64,000 bases of DNA, taken from Gammaproteobacteria bacterium. GTDB taxonomy: Bacteria; Pseudomonadota; Gammaproteobacteria; Steroidobacterales; Steroidobacteraceae. Under the pieces are notes generated by a model that ran no database searches, had not been told where the DNA came from, and saw nothing but the letters and a program-made list of their open reading frames with translations. Shown here piece after piece: positions 11,561-22,094 of the stretch. Location of the stretch: NCBI GenBank assembly GCA_025358295.1, contig JANYJY010000045.1, forward strand, positions 1 to 64,000, in the 5' to 3' direction. Position 1 is the stretch's first letter; each line of letters starts with the position of its first letter. A program made the position numbers and the translations under genes.

Positions 11561-13099
11561 ATGGAAACGCCAAATCCAGGTTCCGACACCGTGCTTTCCG
11601 AAGACGAAGTGCTCGCCTGCGTGCGAGTGCTGCGCGCCATCGAGGCCGATCGCTCGCACCTGACGCACCTGACCCCGGCACGGCGCCGCGAATTACTGAC
11701 GCTTGCAGGCCTGGTGGCAAAGCCCGAGCGCCACGACCTGGTTAAAATGGCGAAGGCATTTCGCCGCACCGAGCGCGAGGCCGTGAAACAGCACGACCGC
11801 CAGGTCATCGAAACGGCGGGCCTGCGCCGGCAGCGCCGCGCACCGGTCTATGCGCCTCTGTGGCTCGAACCGCCCAAGCCTGAAGACCTCGGCGCACGCG
11901 GAGTGCTCCATGCCGAGCTCAACTGCTATGTCTGTAAACAGCCGTTTACCACCATGCATCGCTACTACGATTCTTTGTGCGAGGCCTGCGGTGATTTCAA
12001 TTATGCCAAGCGCGAACAAACGGCGGACCTCAGCGGTCACTATGCGCTCATCACCGGCGCACGGGTCAAAATCGGCTTTCAATCGTCCTTGAAACTGCTG
12101 CGCGCCGGCGCGCACGTCATCGTCACCACGCGCTTTCCTGTCGATGCCATTGAGCGATACTCAGAGGAGCCGGAATTCTCCGCGTGGCGCGGGCGCCTGC
12201 AAATTCATGGGCTTGATCTGCGGCATACGCCGAGCGTGGAATTGTTCGCGCGTTTCCTGACCGAGCGGCTGCCGCGGCTCGACTATATCCTGAACAATGC
12301 CTGCCAGACGGTGCGCCGGCCCGCAGGTTTTTTTCAGCATCTGCTGGCGCGGGAATCCACACCGCCCGGCTCTCTACCCGAGACCCTGCGGGGTCCCTTG
12401 GCGAGTCACCATGAATTGCTGCACATTCTGGAGAGCCGACAGGAATCCGGCACAGGCGCGCTGGTGTCTTCGCATTCGCGGCGGCACGGGGAGGGACTCT
12501 TGCACAGCGCGGAACTCTCGCAGAGGCGCTACCTTGACGAAGACTATCACGACGGAGAAGCGCTGTTCCCCACCCATCACTATGACGAGGACCGGCAGCA
12601 GGTGGATCTGCGCGCGGTCAACAGCTGGCGGCTGCGCATGCATGAAGTCGAGACACCCGAACTCCTGGAAGTGCAGCTGGTGAACGCGGTCGCGCCGTAC
12701 ATTCTCAATGCTCGCTTGAAACCGCTGATGCTGCGCATCCCCGGGCGCCACAAGCACATCGTCAATGTCAGCGCCATGGAGGGTCAGTTTTATCGGTCCA
12801 CCAAGACCGACAGGCACCCCCATACCAACATGGCAAAGGCGGCGCTCAACATGATGACGCGAACCTCCGCGCCGGACTACGTTAAGGATGGGATTCACAT
12901 GAATGCCGTCGACACAGGATGGGTCACCGATGAAGATCCGGCCGTTCATGCAGCCCGCAAGGCTGAACTCGGCTTCGCACCGCCGCTCGACATCATCGAC
13001 GGTGCCGCGCGCATCGTCGACCCCATATTCGCCGGGCAGATCACCGGCAACCATGTGTGGGGACAGTTCCTGAAGGACTACAAGCCAGCCCCCTGGTAG
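11561..13099 (+). CDS. SDR-family oxidoreductase with N-terminal CxxC pair and no catalytic tyrosine
   Basis: A 512-residue protein. Residues 1-110 are helical and basic. Near residues 124-146 two CxxC pairs (CYVCKQPF, CEACGDFN) look like a small zinc ribbon. A Rossmann domain follows (ALITGARVKIGFQSSLKLLRAGAHVIVTTRFP, LDYILNNACQ). Where SDR enzymes have YxxxK the sequence is HTNMAKAAL, so the Lys is kept but the Tyr position holds Thr; the upstream Ser is present (IVNVSAMEGQ). It is therefore an SDR by fold with an altered active site. NAD(P) binding is likely; the substrate is unknown. It diverges from mrcB. Similar long SDRs are widespread as uncharacterised proteins, to my recollection. 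Confidence 0.8.
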   Translation: METPNPGSDTVLSEDEVLACVRVLRAIEADRSHLTHLTPARRRELLTLAGLVAKPERHDLVKMAKAFRRTEREAVKQHDRQVIETAGLRRQRRAPVYAPLWLEPPKPEDLGARGVLHAELNCYVCKQPFTTMHRYYDSLCEACGDFNYAKREQTADLSGHYALITGARVKIGFQSSLKLLRAGAHVIVTTRFPVDAIERYSEEPEFSAWRGRLQIHGLDLRHTPSVELFARFLTERLPRLDYILNNACQTVRRPAGFFQHLLARESTPPGSLPETLRGPLASHHELLHILESRQESGTGALVSSHSRRHGEGLLHSAELSQRRYLDEDYHDGEALFPTHHYDEDRQQVDLRAVNSWRLRMHEVETPELLEVQLVNAVAPYILNARLKPLMLRIPGRHKHIVNVSAMEGQFYRSTKTDRHPHTNMAKAALNMMTRTSAPDYVKDGIHMNAVDTGWVTDEDPAVHAARKAELGFAPPLDIIDGAARIVDPIFAGQITGNHVWGQFLKDYKPAPW

Positions 13100-13186: not shown

Positions 13187-14539
13187 ATGTCCGAAGACTG
13201 GACCCAATGGGAGAACCGGCTCATCGGCGGGGTGTACCCCCTGCGCCGCTTCCTGGGACAATCGGATCACAGCGTCGTTTTTCTGACCGAGCACCGGGCC
13301 AAGGGCCTGGCCCAAGCGGCGATCAAGCTCATTCCGGCCGACCCTGCGCTGACCGCGGTGCAGCTGTCTTATTGGAGGTCGGCCGCCACCCTGAGCCACC
13401 CTCACTTGTTGCCCATTCTCGATGCCGGCAGTTGCGCTCTCGGCGGGCATCCCTTTCTGTTCGTTGTCCTTGAATATGCGGAAGAGACTCTCGCGCAAAT
13501 CCTTCCGCAGCGCGCGCTGACTACCGATGAAGTGCGCGGCATGCTGCGCCCCATGCTCGAAACCCTGGCCTACCTTCACGGCAAGGGCTGGGCGCACGGG
13601 CAACTCAAATCGCCGAATGTCCTGGTCGTCGGCGATCAAGTAAAACTTGCCGGCGACAACCTACTGCCCATCGGCAAGTCGAGGCCGGTATTCACCAAGC
13701 CTTCGCCTTATGATCCGCCGGAATCCAAGGGCGGCGCCGTATCCGCCGCAGGGGATGTCTGGGGTCTCGGCGTCATCCTGGTCGAGGCACTGACTCAACG
13801 CCTGCCCGCGCTCAAGGATGACTCTGCAGTCGAGCCGGCGGCTGTGGTTGCACTGCCGGACTCCGTCCCACCGCCGTTCGTTGACACGCTACGCCGGTGT
13901 CTGAGCCGCGATCCCACCCGCCGCCCCCCGATCGCGGAACTCAACGATCGATTCTATGCAGCGCCGCCGCCCGCGTCGGAAGCGCCACCCGCAGTGGATC
14001 ATGTACCGGTGATTAGCGTTCCGCTGTGGAATGCGTTCAATCATGGCTGGATACTGAGCGCGGCCGCGGCTGCCCTCCTGCTGATCATCACCGCCTCGGT
14101 TGGCCTGTCCCTGCGGCACGCCCCGCCGCCGTCGCCGGCCGGCGTCTCTCCCGATTCGTCGGCGGTCTCCGCGCCGTCCGCAGCGGCGCCGCCGAATCAG
14201 AATGCACCGTTGGTGCGGCCGGCGCCCTCCTCGCAACCTGCAGCCGATGCCGCGCAGACGGTCCTGCACGAAGAGATTCCCAACGTGTCGCGCAGCGCGC
14301 GCGAATCGATTCACGGCGACATCAAAGTAGCGATTTATGTCACCGTCGACCGCTCCGGCAAGGTGGTCGGCCAGAAAATAGAGCTGCATGGCGGCAGCAA
14401 GTATTTCGCGCGCTTGGCCAGCGAAGCGGCCAAAAAATGGAGCTTTGTTCCGGCGGACCATCCCAACTCCCGCGGGTGGCTGTTGCGGTTCGAGTTCACC
14501 CGCGCCGGCGCAACGGCGCACGCCACTGCCCGCCCATAA
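13187..14539 (+). CDS. Ser/Thr protein kinase-like (probable pseudokinase) fused to a TonB-type C-terminal domain
   Basis: A 450-residue membrane protein. Residues about 10-265 have a protein kinase fold with the ATP-binding Lys (AAIKLI) and a conserved LEYAEETL hinge. The catalytic loop reads HGQLKSPNVLV where kinases have HRDLKxxN, so the catalytic Asp is Gln; the DFG site reads LAGDNL. Kinase activity is therefore doubtful. One membrane helix (ILSAAAAALLLIITASVGLSL, about 285-305) leads to a Pro/Ala-rich linker and a periplasmic TonB_C-like domain (IYVTVDRSGKVVGQKIELHGGSKYFARLASEAAKKWSF). It could relay a periplasmic contact inward, or act as a scaffold. A possible partner is the SUMF1-like membrane protein downstream. 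Confidence 0.8.
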   Translation: MSEDWTQWENRLIGGVYPLRRFLGQSDHSVVFLTEHRAKGLAQAAIKLIPADPALTAVQLSYWRSAATLSHPHLLPILDAGSCALGGHPFLFVVLEYAEETLAQILPQRALTTDEVRGMLRPMLETLAYLHGKGWAHGQLKSPNVLVVGDQVKLAGDNLLPIGKSRPVFTKPSPYDPPESKGGAVSAAGDVWGLGVILVEALTQRLPALKDDSAVEPAAVVALPDSVPPPFVDTLRRCLSRDPTRRPPIAELNDRFYAAPPPASEAPPAVDHVPVISVPLWNAFNHGWILSAAAAALLLIITASVGLSLRHAPPPSPAGVSPDSSAVSAPSAAAPPNQNAPLVRPAPSSQPAADAAQTVLHEEIPNVSRSARESIHGDIKVAIYVTVDRSGKVVGQKIELHGGSKYFARLASEAAKKWSFVPADHPNSRGWLLRFEFTRAGATAHATARP

Positions 14540-14612
14540 CGCAGCCGAGAACCATGCGTTATTGCCCGGCTTGCGTCAAAATGACGCATTGCTGGACCAC
14601 GAGGAGAGATTG

Positions 14613-16145
14613 ATGACTGATTCAATTGAACCGGGCTTAAGCCGGCGCGATTTCGTGCAGGGCGCCGTCTCGGGTGCCGTATTGGCTGCCGCACCGGCGG
14701 CGGTGATGGCCGCGAGCGGCGAAAAGAACGCCGATAAGGCAGCGGTGTTGGCCCAGGTGCCGAAAATGCACGCGGAAAACGTGCAGCGGCTGCAGGACTG
14801 GGTCGCTCTGCCTTCCATTGCGGCGGAGAACCGCAATTATCCGCAAGGTGCCGAGTACATGGCCAAGCTTGCGGAAGCGGCAGGCTTCAGCGGCGTAAAA
14901 ATCATTCCGACCTCGGGGAAGCCAGGAGTGTTCGGCCGCCTGGATTCAGGCGCCAAGACCACGATGGCGATCTATTTCATGTACGACGTGAAGCAATTCG
15001 TTCCCTCGGAATGGAGCTCGCCTCCGCTAGAAGCCCGGTTGGTGGAAAAGCCCGGCCTGGGCACGGTGTGCATGGGACGCGGCGCCGTGAATCAAAAAGG
15101 ACCGCAAAACTCCTTCCTGGGGGCACTCATGGCATTCAAGGCCACGGGCAAAAAATTACCTGTCAATCTGGTCTTGGTGTGCGAAGGCGAAGAGGAAATT
15201 GCCTCGCCACACTTCGGTGAAATCGTCAACAGTCCCGATGTATTTCCGCATATGAAATCCTGCGTCGGCGTGATGCTGCCGGAGGCCAGCCAGGGACTGG
15301 ACGGCAGCGTACAGTGCGATGCCGGCGCGAAGGGCGTGGTGGAATTGGAACTGGTGTCGAGCGGAGAAAGCTGGGGACGCGGGCCAAAGCGGGATATTCA
15401 CTCGAGCCTGGAAGCGCAGGTGGATTCGCCGTCCTGGCACTTGATTCAAGCGCTCAACACTCTGGTCGAAAAAGATGGCCACACGCCGGCCGTCGAGGGG
15501 TTTTTCGACAAGGCCAAGCCGCTGACCGATGCGCAGAAGAAAATGGTGTTGGCGTATGCCGCGGCGGTGCCCGAAGCCACCTCGAAGGCTGAATTCGGCG
15601 TCGATCACTGGGTGCACGATCTGAACTGGCAGGACTCCTTGCTGCGTCTGTACTCACAGCCCACCATCAATATCGAGGGACTCGTGGGCGGCTACACCGG
15701 ACCCGGAGGCAAGACGGTGCTACCGCATCGGGCAGTCGCCAAAATCGACATGCGTCTGGTGCCCGACATGACCGCCGCCGACACCTTGGCCAAGCTCAAA
15801 GCGCATCTGGCCAAGCATGGTTTCGGCGACATCGAAGTCAATATGAGCGGCGGCTATGACCCCACGCAGACGGATCCCAACAGCAAGTTCTTCAAGGCGG
15901 TGCTGGCAACATTCAACAAGCTCGGTTCACCGCCCCTCGTCGTGCCGCGCAGTCCGGGTTCTTGGCCCGGCTATCGATTCACGAGCCCACCGTTAAGTCT
16001 CCCGGCCGGTCAATTTGGACTGGGGCATGGCACCGGCGCGCACGCTCCGGATGAGTACTACTTGATCGACTCGAAGAATCCAGCGATCAAGGGATTGGAC
16101 GGTGCGGTCGCATCGTTCGTCGAGTTCCTGTACGCCATGGCTTAA
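14613..16145 (+). CDS. M20-family peptidase-like protein, Tat-exported, with altered metal ligands
   Basis: The start at MTDSIEPGLSRRDFVQG is supported by GAGGAGA; upstream track residues are spurious. SRRDFVQGAVSGAVLAAAPAAVMA is a Tat signal, so the 510-residue protein is exported folded. The M20 fold is clear (CEGEEEIASPHF, RDIHSSLEAQVDSPSWHLIQALN, a closing GHGTGAHAPDEYYLI). Two metal positions differ from the family: HxD is M-Y-D (YFMYDVKQF), and the bridging Asp of GRGAxDxKG is Asn (GRGAVNQKGP). The general-base Glu and final His remain. It may bind one metal, use a different chemistry, or be non-hydrolytic. Its last bases overlap the convergent TPR gene. Confidence 0.83.
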   Translation: MTDSIEPGLSRRDFVQGAVSGAVLAAAPAAVMAASGEKNADKAAVLAQVPKMHAENVQRLQDWVALPSIAAENRNYPQGAEYMAKLAEAAGFSGVKIIPTSGKPGVFGRLDSGAKTTMAIYFMYDVKQFVPSEWSSPPLEARLVEKPGLGTVCMGRGAVNQKGPQNSFLGALMAFKATGKKLPVNLVLVCEGEEEIASPHFGEIVNSPDVFPHMKSCVGVMLPEASQGLDGSVQCDAGAKGVVELELVSSGESWGRGPKRDIHSSLEAQVDSPSWHLIQALNTLVEKDGHTPAVEGFFDKAKPLTDAQKKMVLAYAAAVPEATSKAEFGVDHWVHDLNWQDSLLRLYSQPTINIEGLVGGYTGPGGKTVLPHRAVAKIDMRLVPDMTAADTLAKLKAHLAKHGFGDIEVNMSGGYDPTQTDPNSKFFKAVLATFNKLGSPPLVVPRSPGSWPGYRFTSPPLSLPAGQFGLGHGTGAHAPDEYYLIDSKNPAIKGLDGAVASFVEFLYAMA

Positions 16146-19747: not shown

Positions 19748-20938
19748 ATGCTCCGCGCTGCACTGAACAATGCACTAGTACTCACCTCCCTGGCATCCAC
19801 GTCACTCTTAGGCCTGCCCTGCTTGGCCGCCGGCGTGACTGCGGAAGTCAGCGACGTCGCCACTCTGACACCGAACACGCCGCACCGCTTTTTCACCGGG
19901 GGCTTCCGCGAGCCGGGGTTCATCATTTTCGACGGCGACAGCGGCAAGATGGAAGGCAGTATCCCGGCGGGCTATATCGCGAACCTCGCCATCGCTCCCG
20001 ACAACAGCCAATTCTATGTCGCCGAGACTTACTGGGCCCATGGGGCGCGCGGCAAGCGCGACGACATGGTCACCATCTACGACGCGAAGACGCTCAATCT
20101 GGTCAAGGAAATCATGCTCCCGGGCCGGGCCCTGGTCAGCAGGAAGCAAAATTTCGATATCAATGCAGCCGGCTCACGCGCCTACGTGTACATCATGCTG
20201 CCCGTAGCCTCGGTGGTCTGGGTCGACTTAAAGAAACAGTCGGTGGGCGGCACGGTGGAAATCCCCGGCTGCGCCCAGGTCTTTCCCTGGGGCGAACAAG
20301 GTTTCTCCTCACTGTGCGGCGATGGTTCTCTCGCCAGCGTCACCGTCCCCGCATCCGGCCCGGCCAAAGTCACCCACACCAAGCCCTTCTTCGACGCCAA
20401 CAGCGATCCGATTTTCGACGACGGCTTCGTCGACCGCGCCACCGGCAAGGCGATTTTTTTCTCCTACACCGGCCTGGTGTACGAGGCCAAGCTCGGGCCT
20501 GAATCAACGATCAGTGCACCCTGGTCCATTCAGAAAGCTGCCGGCTATGCAGCGGCCGGTACCGGCGTACAGGAGCTGGCATGGCGCCCCGGGGGCGCGC
20601 AATTGGCCGCCTTCCATAAGGCGAGCGGCAAGTTATTCGTCTTGATGCATCCCGGGAATTTCTGGACTCACAAGCATGGCGGCACCGAAGTGTGGGTGCT
20701 CGACACCAAGACTCATGCGCTGGTGTCGCGCTTCCCGCTGCGCGCCGTTCCGTCCAGCGGGCTCGGCGATGACGCGATTCCCTATTATATGAATATCGGC
20801 GTCTCTCAAGACGCCAAGCCCCTGCTCTATCTCTTAAACGATCAAGGCAATGACGTGGTGATGGACGCAACAACAGGTGAGCAATTGCGCAAGATTGAAT
20901 TTGCCGCCGGCAATAACATTTCGGTTCCGGGCTATTGA
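19748..20938 (+). CDS. aauB: Amine dehydrogenase heavy (large) chain
   Basis: Exported 396-residue beta-propeller subunit of a tryptophan tryptophylquinone (TTQ) amine dehydrogenase, which oxidises primary amines to aldehydes in the periplasm. It has a signal peptide (ALVLTSLASTSLLGLPCLAAG) and family blocks PHRFFTGGFREPGFIIFDGDSGKMEG, PDNSQFYVAETYWAHGARGKRDDMVTIYDAKTL and HKHGGTEVWVLDTKTHALVSR. A GAGGG site precedes the ATG. First gene of a five-gene operon whose order (B, E, D, A, cytochrome c) resembles the aromatic amine dehydrogenase cluster of Alcaligenes as I recall it. mauB is the equivalent name for the methylamine enzyme; the substrate cannot be decided from sequence. Confidence 0.9.
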   Translation: MLRAALNNALVLTSLASTSLLGLPCLAAGVTAEVSDVATLTPNTPHRFFTGGFREPGFIIFDGDSGKMEGSIPAGYIANLAIAPDNSQFYVAETYWAHGARGKRDDMVTIYDAKTLNLVKEIMLPGRALVSRKQNFDINAAGSRAYVYIMLPVASVVWVDLKKQSVGGTVEIPGCAQVFPWGEQGFSSLCGDGSLASVTVPASGPAKVTHTKPFFDANSDPIFDDGFVDRATGKAIFFSYTGLVYEAKLGPESTISAPWSIQKAAGYAAAGTGVQELAWRPGGAQLAAFHKASGKLFVLMHPGNFWTHKHGGTEVWVLDTKTHALVSRFPLRAVPSSGLGDDAIPYYMNIGVSQDAKPLLYLLNDQGNDVVMDATTGEQLRKIEFAAGNNISVPGY

Positions 20939-21498
20939 TGGGGGCGACGGCTGCGATGGCGGAGGTCGCGTTGTCCATCCGAACCTTGCTGGGCCTCGTC
21001 TTTCTGACGGCGGCGTACGGCAAGCTGCGTCATTGGGCGGTGTTTCAAGGAGTGGTGGCCAATTACCGCCTGCTGCCGGAAGTGCTGGTGCTACCGGTCG
21101 CCTATGCGTTGCCGCCCGTCGAAGCCGCGTTGGGCGCGGCGCTGCTGCTCGGTCTGGGATTTCCACTGCCTGAGATCGGTGCGATCGCTCTATTGCTGCT
21201 GTTTGCATTCGCCATGGGCCTGAACATTGTGCGTGGTCGTCGTCACATCGATTGCGGCTGTTTTCAAAGCGCACTGCAGCAAACACTCAGCTGGACTTTG
21301 GTGTTGCGCAATCTTGTGCTGGTATCGCTGCTCGCCGTGCTGCCGCTGTCCGGCGGCACGCCATCCGATCTGTTCGCGATCGTGAACGGCCTGTTGGTGG
21401 GCGGCGTCCTGTTCATCATTCTTCAGGCGCTCAACATCCTGCAGAGCATCGTCCCCGCCTGGCGCCATGCCAAGCATTCCGGTGGAGTAATGTCATGA
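20938..21498 (+). CDS. mauE: MauE: membrane protein for amine dehydrogenase biogenesis
   Basis: Polytopic inner-membrane protein (about 186 residues) with four or five hydrophobic segments, of the MauE/DoxX-like family. The ATG overlaps the TGA of the heavy-chain gene (TGATG), so they are coupled; the track TTG one codon earlier is unnecessary. A cysteine motif, IDCGCFQSAL, sits after the RGRRH loop, a feature of MauE proteins thought to work in the redox pathway that forms the six disulfides of the light chain. Confidence 0.88.
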   Translation: MGATAAMAEVALSIRTLLGLVFLTAAYGKLRHWAVFQGVVANYRLLPEVLVLPVAYALPPVEAALGAALLLGLGFPLPEIGAIALLLLFAFAMGLNIVRGRRHIDCGCFQSALQQTLSWTLVLRNLVLVSLLAVLPLSGGTPSDLFAIVNGLLVGGVLFIILQALNILQSIVPAWRHAKHSGGVMS

Positions 21499-22094
21499 CG
21501 CCCGTGATCATTACTCTGACCTTGTTGTGGGTGGTGGTGATTTGCCTGAGCGTTGCGGTGCTTGCGCTGGCGCGTCAGGTGGGCGTGCTGCACGAGCGCG
21601 TCTCGCCCGCCGGCGCCCTGATCAGTGCCGCGGGCCCGGGAGTCGGTGAGCAATCGCCCCTTCTCGAAGTGCACGCCTTGGCCGGCAATGCCATCACCGT
21701 GGGTGCCAAGCTCGCCACCGGCAAGGCACTGCTGCTGTTGTTCGTCTCGCAGAGCTGCCCCATCTGCAAAAAATTGATTCCTATTGCCATGGATTTCGCC
21801 AAAAGCGAGCGCTTGGATGTGCTGTTCGTTGGCGATGACGAGATGAGCGCGCAGCAGAAGCTAATCGCCCAATTCGGTCTTGCGGAGAATCGCTTCGTCA
21901 ACGGCCCCACCGTCGGCATGGCCTATCGCGTCGACAAGTTACCCTATGCGGTATTGCTCGATGACTTGGGGGTGATTGCCGCCAAGGGATTGGTCAATAG
22001 TCGGGAGCACTTCGAAAGCCTGATCATCGCCAAGGAAACGGGATTCGCCTCGATTCAATCCTATTTGAAGGCCCAGCCCGAGATCGTCAAATGA
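21495..22094 (+). CDS. mauD: MauD: thioredoxin-like protein for light-chain disulfide formation
   Basis: A 199-residue thioredoxin-fold protein with one N-terminal membrane anchor (VIITLTLLWVVVICLSVAVLALARQV) and a periplasmic domain containing the redox motif CPICK (FVSQSCPICKKLIPIA) and a cis-Pro loop (VDKLPYAVLLDD). MauD with MauE is needed to make stable light chain. The ATG overlaps the stop of mauE by four bases (ATGA); the larger track ORF from 21,252 reads through mauE in the wrong frame. Confidence 0.9.
   Translation: MTPVIITLTLLWVVVICLSVAVLALARQVGVLHERVSPAGALISAAGPGVGEQSPLLEVHALAGNAITVGAKLATGKALLLLFVSQSCPICKKLIPIAMDFAKSERLDVLFVGDDEMSAQQKLIAQFGLAENRFVNGPTVGMAYRVDKLPYAVLLDDLGVIAAKGLVNSREHFESLIIAKETGFASIQSYLKAQPEIVK

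Follow-up and report, generated by a model that had tools for sequence, protein, structure and literature searches.

An exported M20-like protein from a widespread, conserved branch predicted to lack one zinc site

By its sequence, the protein encoded at 14613..16145 of the analysed stretch of DNA (64,000 nucleotides; hereafter the window) is an exported soil-bacterial protein of a widespread and conserved M20 branch that lacks one zinc site. The loss of this site from an otherwise intact active site suggests that the protein, here called P0001, may be an enzyme using one metal ion or none. Proteins of this branch match M20 metallopeptidase models and their homologues carry the annotation M20 metallo-hydrolase, but the branch itself has only part of the metal centre that defines such enzymes. 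If its members are active, they show that a di-zinc hydrolase with co-catalytic metals can lose the better-occupied of its two sites and still work. Site loss of this kind is known in M28, and in the literature searched for metal-less or mononuclear M20 proteins we found nothing relevant and no description of a similar M20 subfamily. If they are inactive, they would form a widespread exported pseudo-peptidase family, and in both cases the annotation as M20 metallo-hydrolases would mislead.

Gene, fold and active-site positions

The P0001 gene has a GAGGAGA ribosome site directly 5' of its start, and the features of the gene and its product are as follows.

14613..16145, + strand: coding sequence of the M20-like protein P0001, 510 aa plus stop (Pfam match and open reading frame)
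14601..14609, + strand: ribosome-binding-site-like GAGGAGAGA ahead of the ATG at 14613 (sequence)
14613..14714, + strand: putative N-terminal Tat-type signal, SRRDF at residues 10-14 and then a hydrophobic stretch (sequence)
14979..14981, + strand: Met123, replacing the first His metal ligand, HYD to MYD (alignment and conservation)
14985..14987, + strand: Asp125 of HxD, kept (invariant in all groups)
15090..15092, + strand: Asn160, replacing the metal-bridging Asp (conservation)
15192..15194, + strand: Glu194, catalytic general base, kept (invariant in clades A, B and C and in canonical relatives)
15195..15197, + strand: Glu195, Zn2-site ligand, kept (conservation; role by homology to ArgE E145, PMC11270798)
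15279..15284, + strand: Pro223-Glu224, the usual place of the third Zn1-site ligand, Asp/Glu (alignment and conservation)
15399..15401, + strand: His263 of the dimerisation domain, partner-subunit catalytic His, kept (role by homology, PMC10122368)
15714..15716, + strand: Thr368, equivalent to DapE N245, partner-subunit substrate contact, kept (motif spacing)
15753..15755, + strand: Arg381, equivalent to DapE R258, substrate-binding Arg, kept (conservation)
15957..15962, + strand: Gly449-Ser450, equivalent to DapE G324-T325, substrate-binding turn, kept (conservation)
16041..16043, + strand: His477, Zn2-site His ligand, kept (role by homology to ArgE H355)

The earlier note had called the product M20-like, and this was borne out. 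P0001 matched the Pfam models Peptidase_M20 (5e-11) and M20_dimer (9e-10), with PF01546 and PF07687 above their gathering scores (43.2 vs 24.6 bits and 39 vs 21 bits, respectively), and it contains the catalytic domain with the inserted dimerisation domain that mark the M20 superfamily. The AF2 model (mean pLDDT 86, pTM 0.85) predicts an M20 fold, for which the closest folds were Sso-CP2 (4mmo; TM 0.87) and the carnosinase-type dipeptidases (TM 0.84), both values being on the target. Both by sequence and by fold, the nearest solved structures are Sso-CP2, 2pok and the carnosinase/DUG1 group. Residues 1-34 had pLDDT values below 50, and the blocks holding the active-site loops (121-140, 191-200, 361-370, and 471-480) had values of 65-78. 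The active-site pLDDT of the Met/Asn family was lower than that of a canonical control at equal effective depth (Neff80 of 28.7 and 28.8).

Metal ligands, conservation and export

The metals of M20 enzymes are bound by His, a bridging Asp, Glu, Asp/Glu and His, and catalysis uses the HxD Asp, a Glu base and a His contributed by the partner subunit (PMC10122368). In E. coli ArgE, Zn1 is bound by H80, E169 and D112, and Zn2 by D112, E145 and H355; each of the two crystal forms contains Zn1, and occupancy is lower at the second site (PMC11270798). We set the ligand positions of P0001 by alignment to Sso-CP2, 2pok, DUG1 and CN2, in which its motifs AIYFMYDVKQ (M123), MGRGAVNQKG (N160), VCEGEEEIAS (E194/E195), and GTGAHAPDE (H477) align to HYDVQP, RGAxDxKG, EGEEEIGS, and HAPNE. 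Since the motifs align in this way, M123 stands at the first His ligand and N160 at the bridging Asp. In terms of ArgE, H80, D112 and E169 correspond to Met123, Asn160 and the Pro223-Glu224 position, while E145 and H355 correspond by homology to Glu195 and His477.

For the comparison, a pattern-based scan of GTDB genomes gave 80 loci; one scan pattern held MYD, and whole-genome profile searches were added to lessen this bias. The set for the clade of P0001 (clade A) comprised 112 non-redundant sequences, 111 of them covering the Met/Asn region, and 41 canonical M20 relatives served for comparison. First, position 123 is Met in 111/111 clade-A and 13/13 clade-B sequences and Met or Gln in clade C, and His in all 41 canonical relatives. 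Second, position 160 is Asn in every covered sequence of clades A, B and C and Asp in 41/41 canonical relatives. Third, clade A has S (44), E (23), L (15), F (11) or D (5) at position 224, so that no acid is conserved in the clade at 223-224; the third Zn1 ligand is lost as well, and with it, by sequence, the whole Zn1 site. The Met/Asn pair is not a matter of chance or sequencing error, because all 111 covered clade-A sequences have both residues and none of the 41 canonical relatives does. The search for homologues sharing these motifs, proposed in the earlier note, had thus found a conserved clade. Both of its observations on the metal centre held: Met and Asn do occupy two ligand positions, and the usual di-zinc centre could not form, as only Glu195 and His477 of the five ligands are present. 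It had understated the loss, in that the change at the third Zn1 ligand went unnoticed there.

The residues expected at the rest of the active site are kept. Glu194, Glu195 and His263 are present in 112/112 clade-A sequences and invariant across clades A, B and C, in which His477 is found in all but one covered sequence, in agreement with the earlier claim that the Glu base and the last His are retained. The catalytic residues of M20 enzymes, namely the base Glu194, Asp125 of HxD and the partner-subunit His263, are therefore all in place. When the DapE substrate contacts were put on P0001 by motif and spacing, without structure superposition, the carboxylate-binding residues Thr368, Arg381 and Gly449-Ser450 were the same as in canonical relatives. 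These comparisons indicate that the Zn2 pair Glu195/His477 survives within an intact pocket. The active-site loops contain one new His, H472, which we considered as a substitute metal ligand and rejected as essential on grounds of conservation: although most clade-A and clade-B sequences have His there, some clade-A members have N, Y or R, and other residues occur at this position in clades B and C. The Asps specific to the three clades (D111, D271, D288, and D406) all lie outside the catalytic motifs.

Clade A has members in Acidobacteriota, Gemmatimonadota, Verrucomicrobiota and Pseudomonadota, in the sampled genomes of which it is sparser than around the source genome, where 17 of 60 genomes gave a strong match. 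Among those 60, clade A lies within the family of the source and clade B in the other families of the order. The source genome has a second copy (G000 contig C31), 55% identical to P0001, and a tblastn search of plasmids found one close copy (66% identity) on a 1.04-Mb replicon of Gemmatirosa kalamazoonensis. The signatures of the sister clades are MMYDVQP/ARGATNQKG in clade B, which includes lipoproteins, and W[MQ]YDTMP/GRGATNSKG in clade C, where tandem copies and lipoproteins are frequent; Asn160 and the lost Zn1 site are common to both. In a tree built with the seven ligand columns removed, clades A, B and C form one side of a branch with support of 100/98, and the Met/Asn state requires a single change and has a single origin on this tree. 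P0001 belongs to this group by its Met123 (Gln in some members) with Asn160, its Glu194-Glu195 pair, His477 and its place on this branch. The dN/dS values of 0.06-0.11 between close relatives, a rough ratio since dS is at least 1, indicate purifying selection.

More degraded relatives were also seen, and the tree has long branches, so that their outer placements are unsure. The M20 relatives L140:1495-2886 and L142:1492-2907, which branch outside clades A, B and C, lack ligands of both metal sites, with Glu195 and His477 absent together, and are likely true pseudoenzymes. In a separate M20 lineage, L141:1450-2931 and L143:1408-2886, His123 and His477 are kept, the bridging Asp is Asn, and the Glu pair is replaced (EGEDALGS) with Glu195 absent; this partial loss of the metal centre is apparently a separate event.

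Based on its N-terminus, we infer that P0001 is exported. The motif RRx[FLMI] was found in 88/110 clade-A N-termini and no signal in 39/41 canonical relatives, although the test was crude and missed many clade-A signals too, and export seems to go with the subfamily. The earlier note had read Tat export as consistent with an enzyme that folds, perhaps with a cofactor, in the cytoplasm. The Tat-type N-terminus stands, but the link to a cofactor is weak: Tat is not tied to the odd metal site, because lipoproteins occur in the sister clades, whose active site is the same.

Gene neighbourhood and candidate functions

The P0001 gene is flanked by a Ser/Thr kinase gene and by a gene with an FGE-sulfatase domain that converges on it, and there was no sign of a functional operon around it within the window. 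In about 80 loci, clade A had no conserved partner gene and its neighbours varied, so the neighbourhood was set aside as a clue to clade-A function. As a raw count, MacB/FtsX permeases were among 5/91 clade-A neighbours, and the second copy in the source genome adjoins two amidohydrolase genes. A clade-C cluster recurs in Acidobacteriota genomes (L196, L198, L199, and in part L200). It contains an OMP_b-brl_4/TonB-type outer-membrane barrel, two to three M20 genes in tandem whose products are Met/Gln-Asn lipoproteins, a MacB-type ABC ATPase with permeases, and a 454-aa lipoprotein-like protein without a Pfam match. Elsewhere in the window, the Ser/Thr protein kinase at 13187-14539, for which Pfam gives the kinase only, has a C-terminal part that by eye resembles a TonB C-terminal domain; 19748-22094 holds, also by eye, methylamine dehydrogenase-like genes for a MauB-like beta-propeller and a MauD-like thioredoxin-fold protein; and 11561-13099 encodes a short-chain dehydrogenase that is extended far at its N-terminus and whose two matched SDR parts are widely separated.

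We give roughly an even chance to the reading that P0001 is an exported mono-metal enzyme, working with the Zn2 site on dipeptide-like or N-acyl-amino-acid-like substrates. Its subfamily of M20 would be a distinct and ancient one: site 1 (His, bridging Asp, and Asp/Glu) has been dismantled in it, while Glu195, His477, the base Glu194, His263 and the substrate-binding residues are held under strong selection. The ligands of the single metal ion may be Glu195, His477 and either the Asn160 side-chain oxygen or a water, and the protein may hydrolyse amides or transfer acyl groups outside the cytoplasm, with such small molecules as substrates. We infer retained catalysis, one metal at site 2 and this substrate class; catalysis is argued for by the conservation of the base, the Zn2 pair and the substrate pocket and by purifying selection across phyla, and the joint loss of Glu195 and His477 in L140 and L142 is what one would expect of residues that form one site. 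Several points count against this mono-metal reading: Asn is a poorer ligand than the bridging Asp, the mono-zinc form of ArgE keeps Zn1, the very site lost in P0001, and clade A is without a conserved gene neighbourhood. The less confident AF2 active-site loops, which are suggestive only, also count against it, and they would suit a site which has ceased to bind metal as well.

That P0001 is instead a non-catalytic pseudoenzyme which binds peptides or amino acids, for example as a scavenging or sensing component, seems rather unlikely to us. The metal site is lost, and the acidobacterial clade-C cluster with its barrel and MacB-type transporter could suit binding; however, a base is needless for mere binding, and Glu194, Glu195, His263 and His477 are invariant or nearly so in clades A, B and C, whereas L140 and L142 have shed Glu195 and His477. 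A metal-independent enzyme is also doubtful. In such an enzyme, the base Glu194 would be assisted by His477 and His263, and in clade A by Lys127, instead of by metals, in a reaction needing little electrophilic activation. All site-1 ligands are gone, the catalytic Glu is kept and 111/111 clade-A sequences have Lys127 where the canonical residue is Gln, but we rejected Lys127 as a shared metal substitute since clade B has Gln there and clade C has Met, and the retained Glu195/His477 pair is most simply read as a metal site. By analogy, the clade might be to M20 what the one-zinc branch is to M28: a mono-metal family that works outside the cytoplasm by acyl transfer or cyclisation, in reactions that form bonds or rings instead of hydrolysing. 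We regard this as improbable. Finally, it is very improbable that P0001 is an ordinary di-metal M20 peptidase with its second metal still held by Met, Asn or other residues: the M20 fold and pocket are conserved overall, some metals are bound by Asn and Met, and Glu224 of P0001 lies close to the place of the third ligand, but three ligand positions of one site are altered, most of the clade has Ser, Leu or Phe at position 224, and Gln replaces Met in half of clade C.

Comparison with known systems

The M28 one-zinc cyclases retain the bridging Asp, which is Asn in P0001. The glutaminyl cyclase branch of M28 binds one zinc, the same has been argued for GPAA1, and human GPAA1 has Pro in place of the site-1 His (PMC7522609). 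These proteins are a precedent for a one-zinc branch inside a co-catalytic di-zinc family and an analogy only, M28 being a different family from M20; M28 models gave no match to P0001 at E 0.001, which places it outside the M28 one-zinc cyclases. Among curated NCBIfam models, the M20 dipeptidase-like PRK06446 (E 7.5e-62) and PRK08201 (E 1.1e-46) scored best for P0001, far under their cut-offs (209.5 of 369 bits and 159.8 of 441 bits, respectively). The catalytic residues and substrate contacts of DapE and ArgE, M20 enzymes with mono- and di-zinc forms, map one to one onto P0001, but their mono-zinc form retains Zn1 (His/Asp/Glu), the ligands of which P0001 has lost. Sso-CP2 and the carnosinase-type M20 dipeptidases (4mmo, CN1/CN2, and DUG1) share with P0001 the fold, the two-domain layout, the HAPNE motif, the catalytic Glu, the partner His and the substrate-binding Arg/Thr/Gly-Ser. 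P0001 differs from this group, to which it is 21-29% identical in fold alignments, in the change of the site-1 His to Met and of the bridging Asp to Asn, the loss of the third acid, and its export signal.
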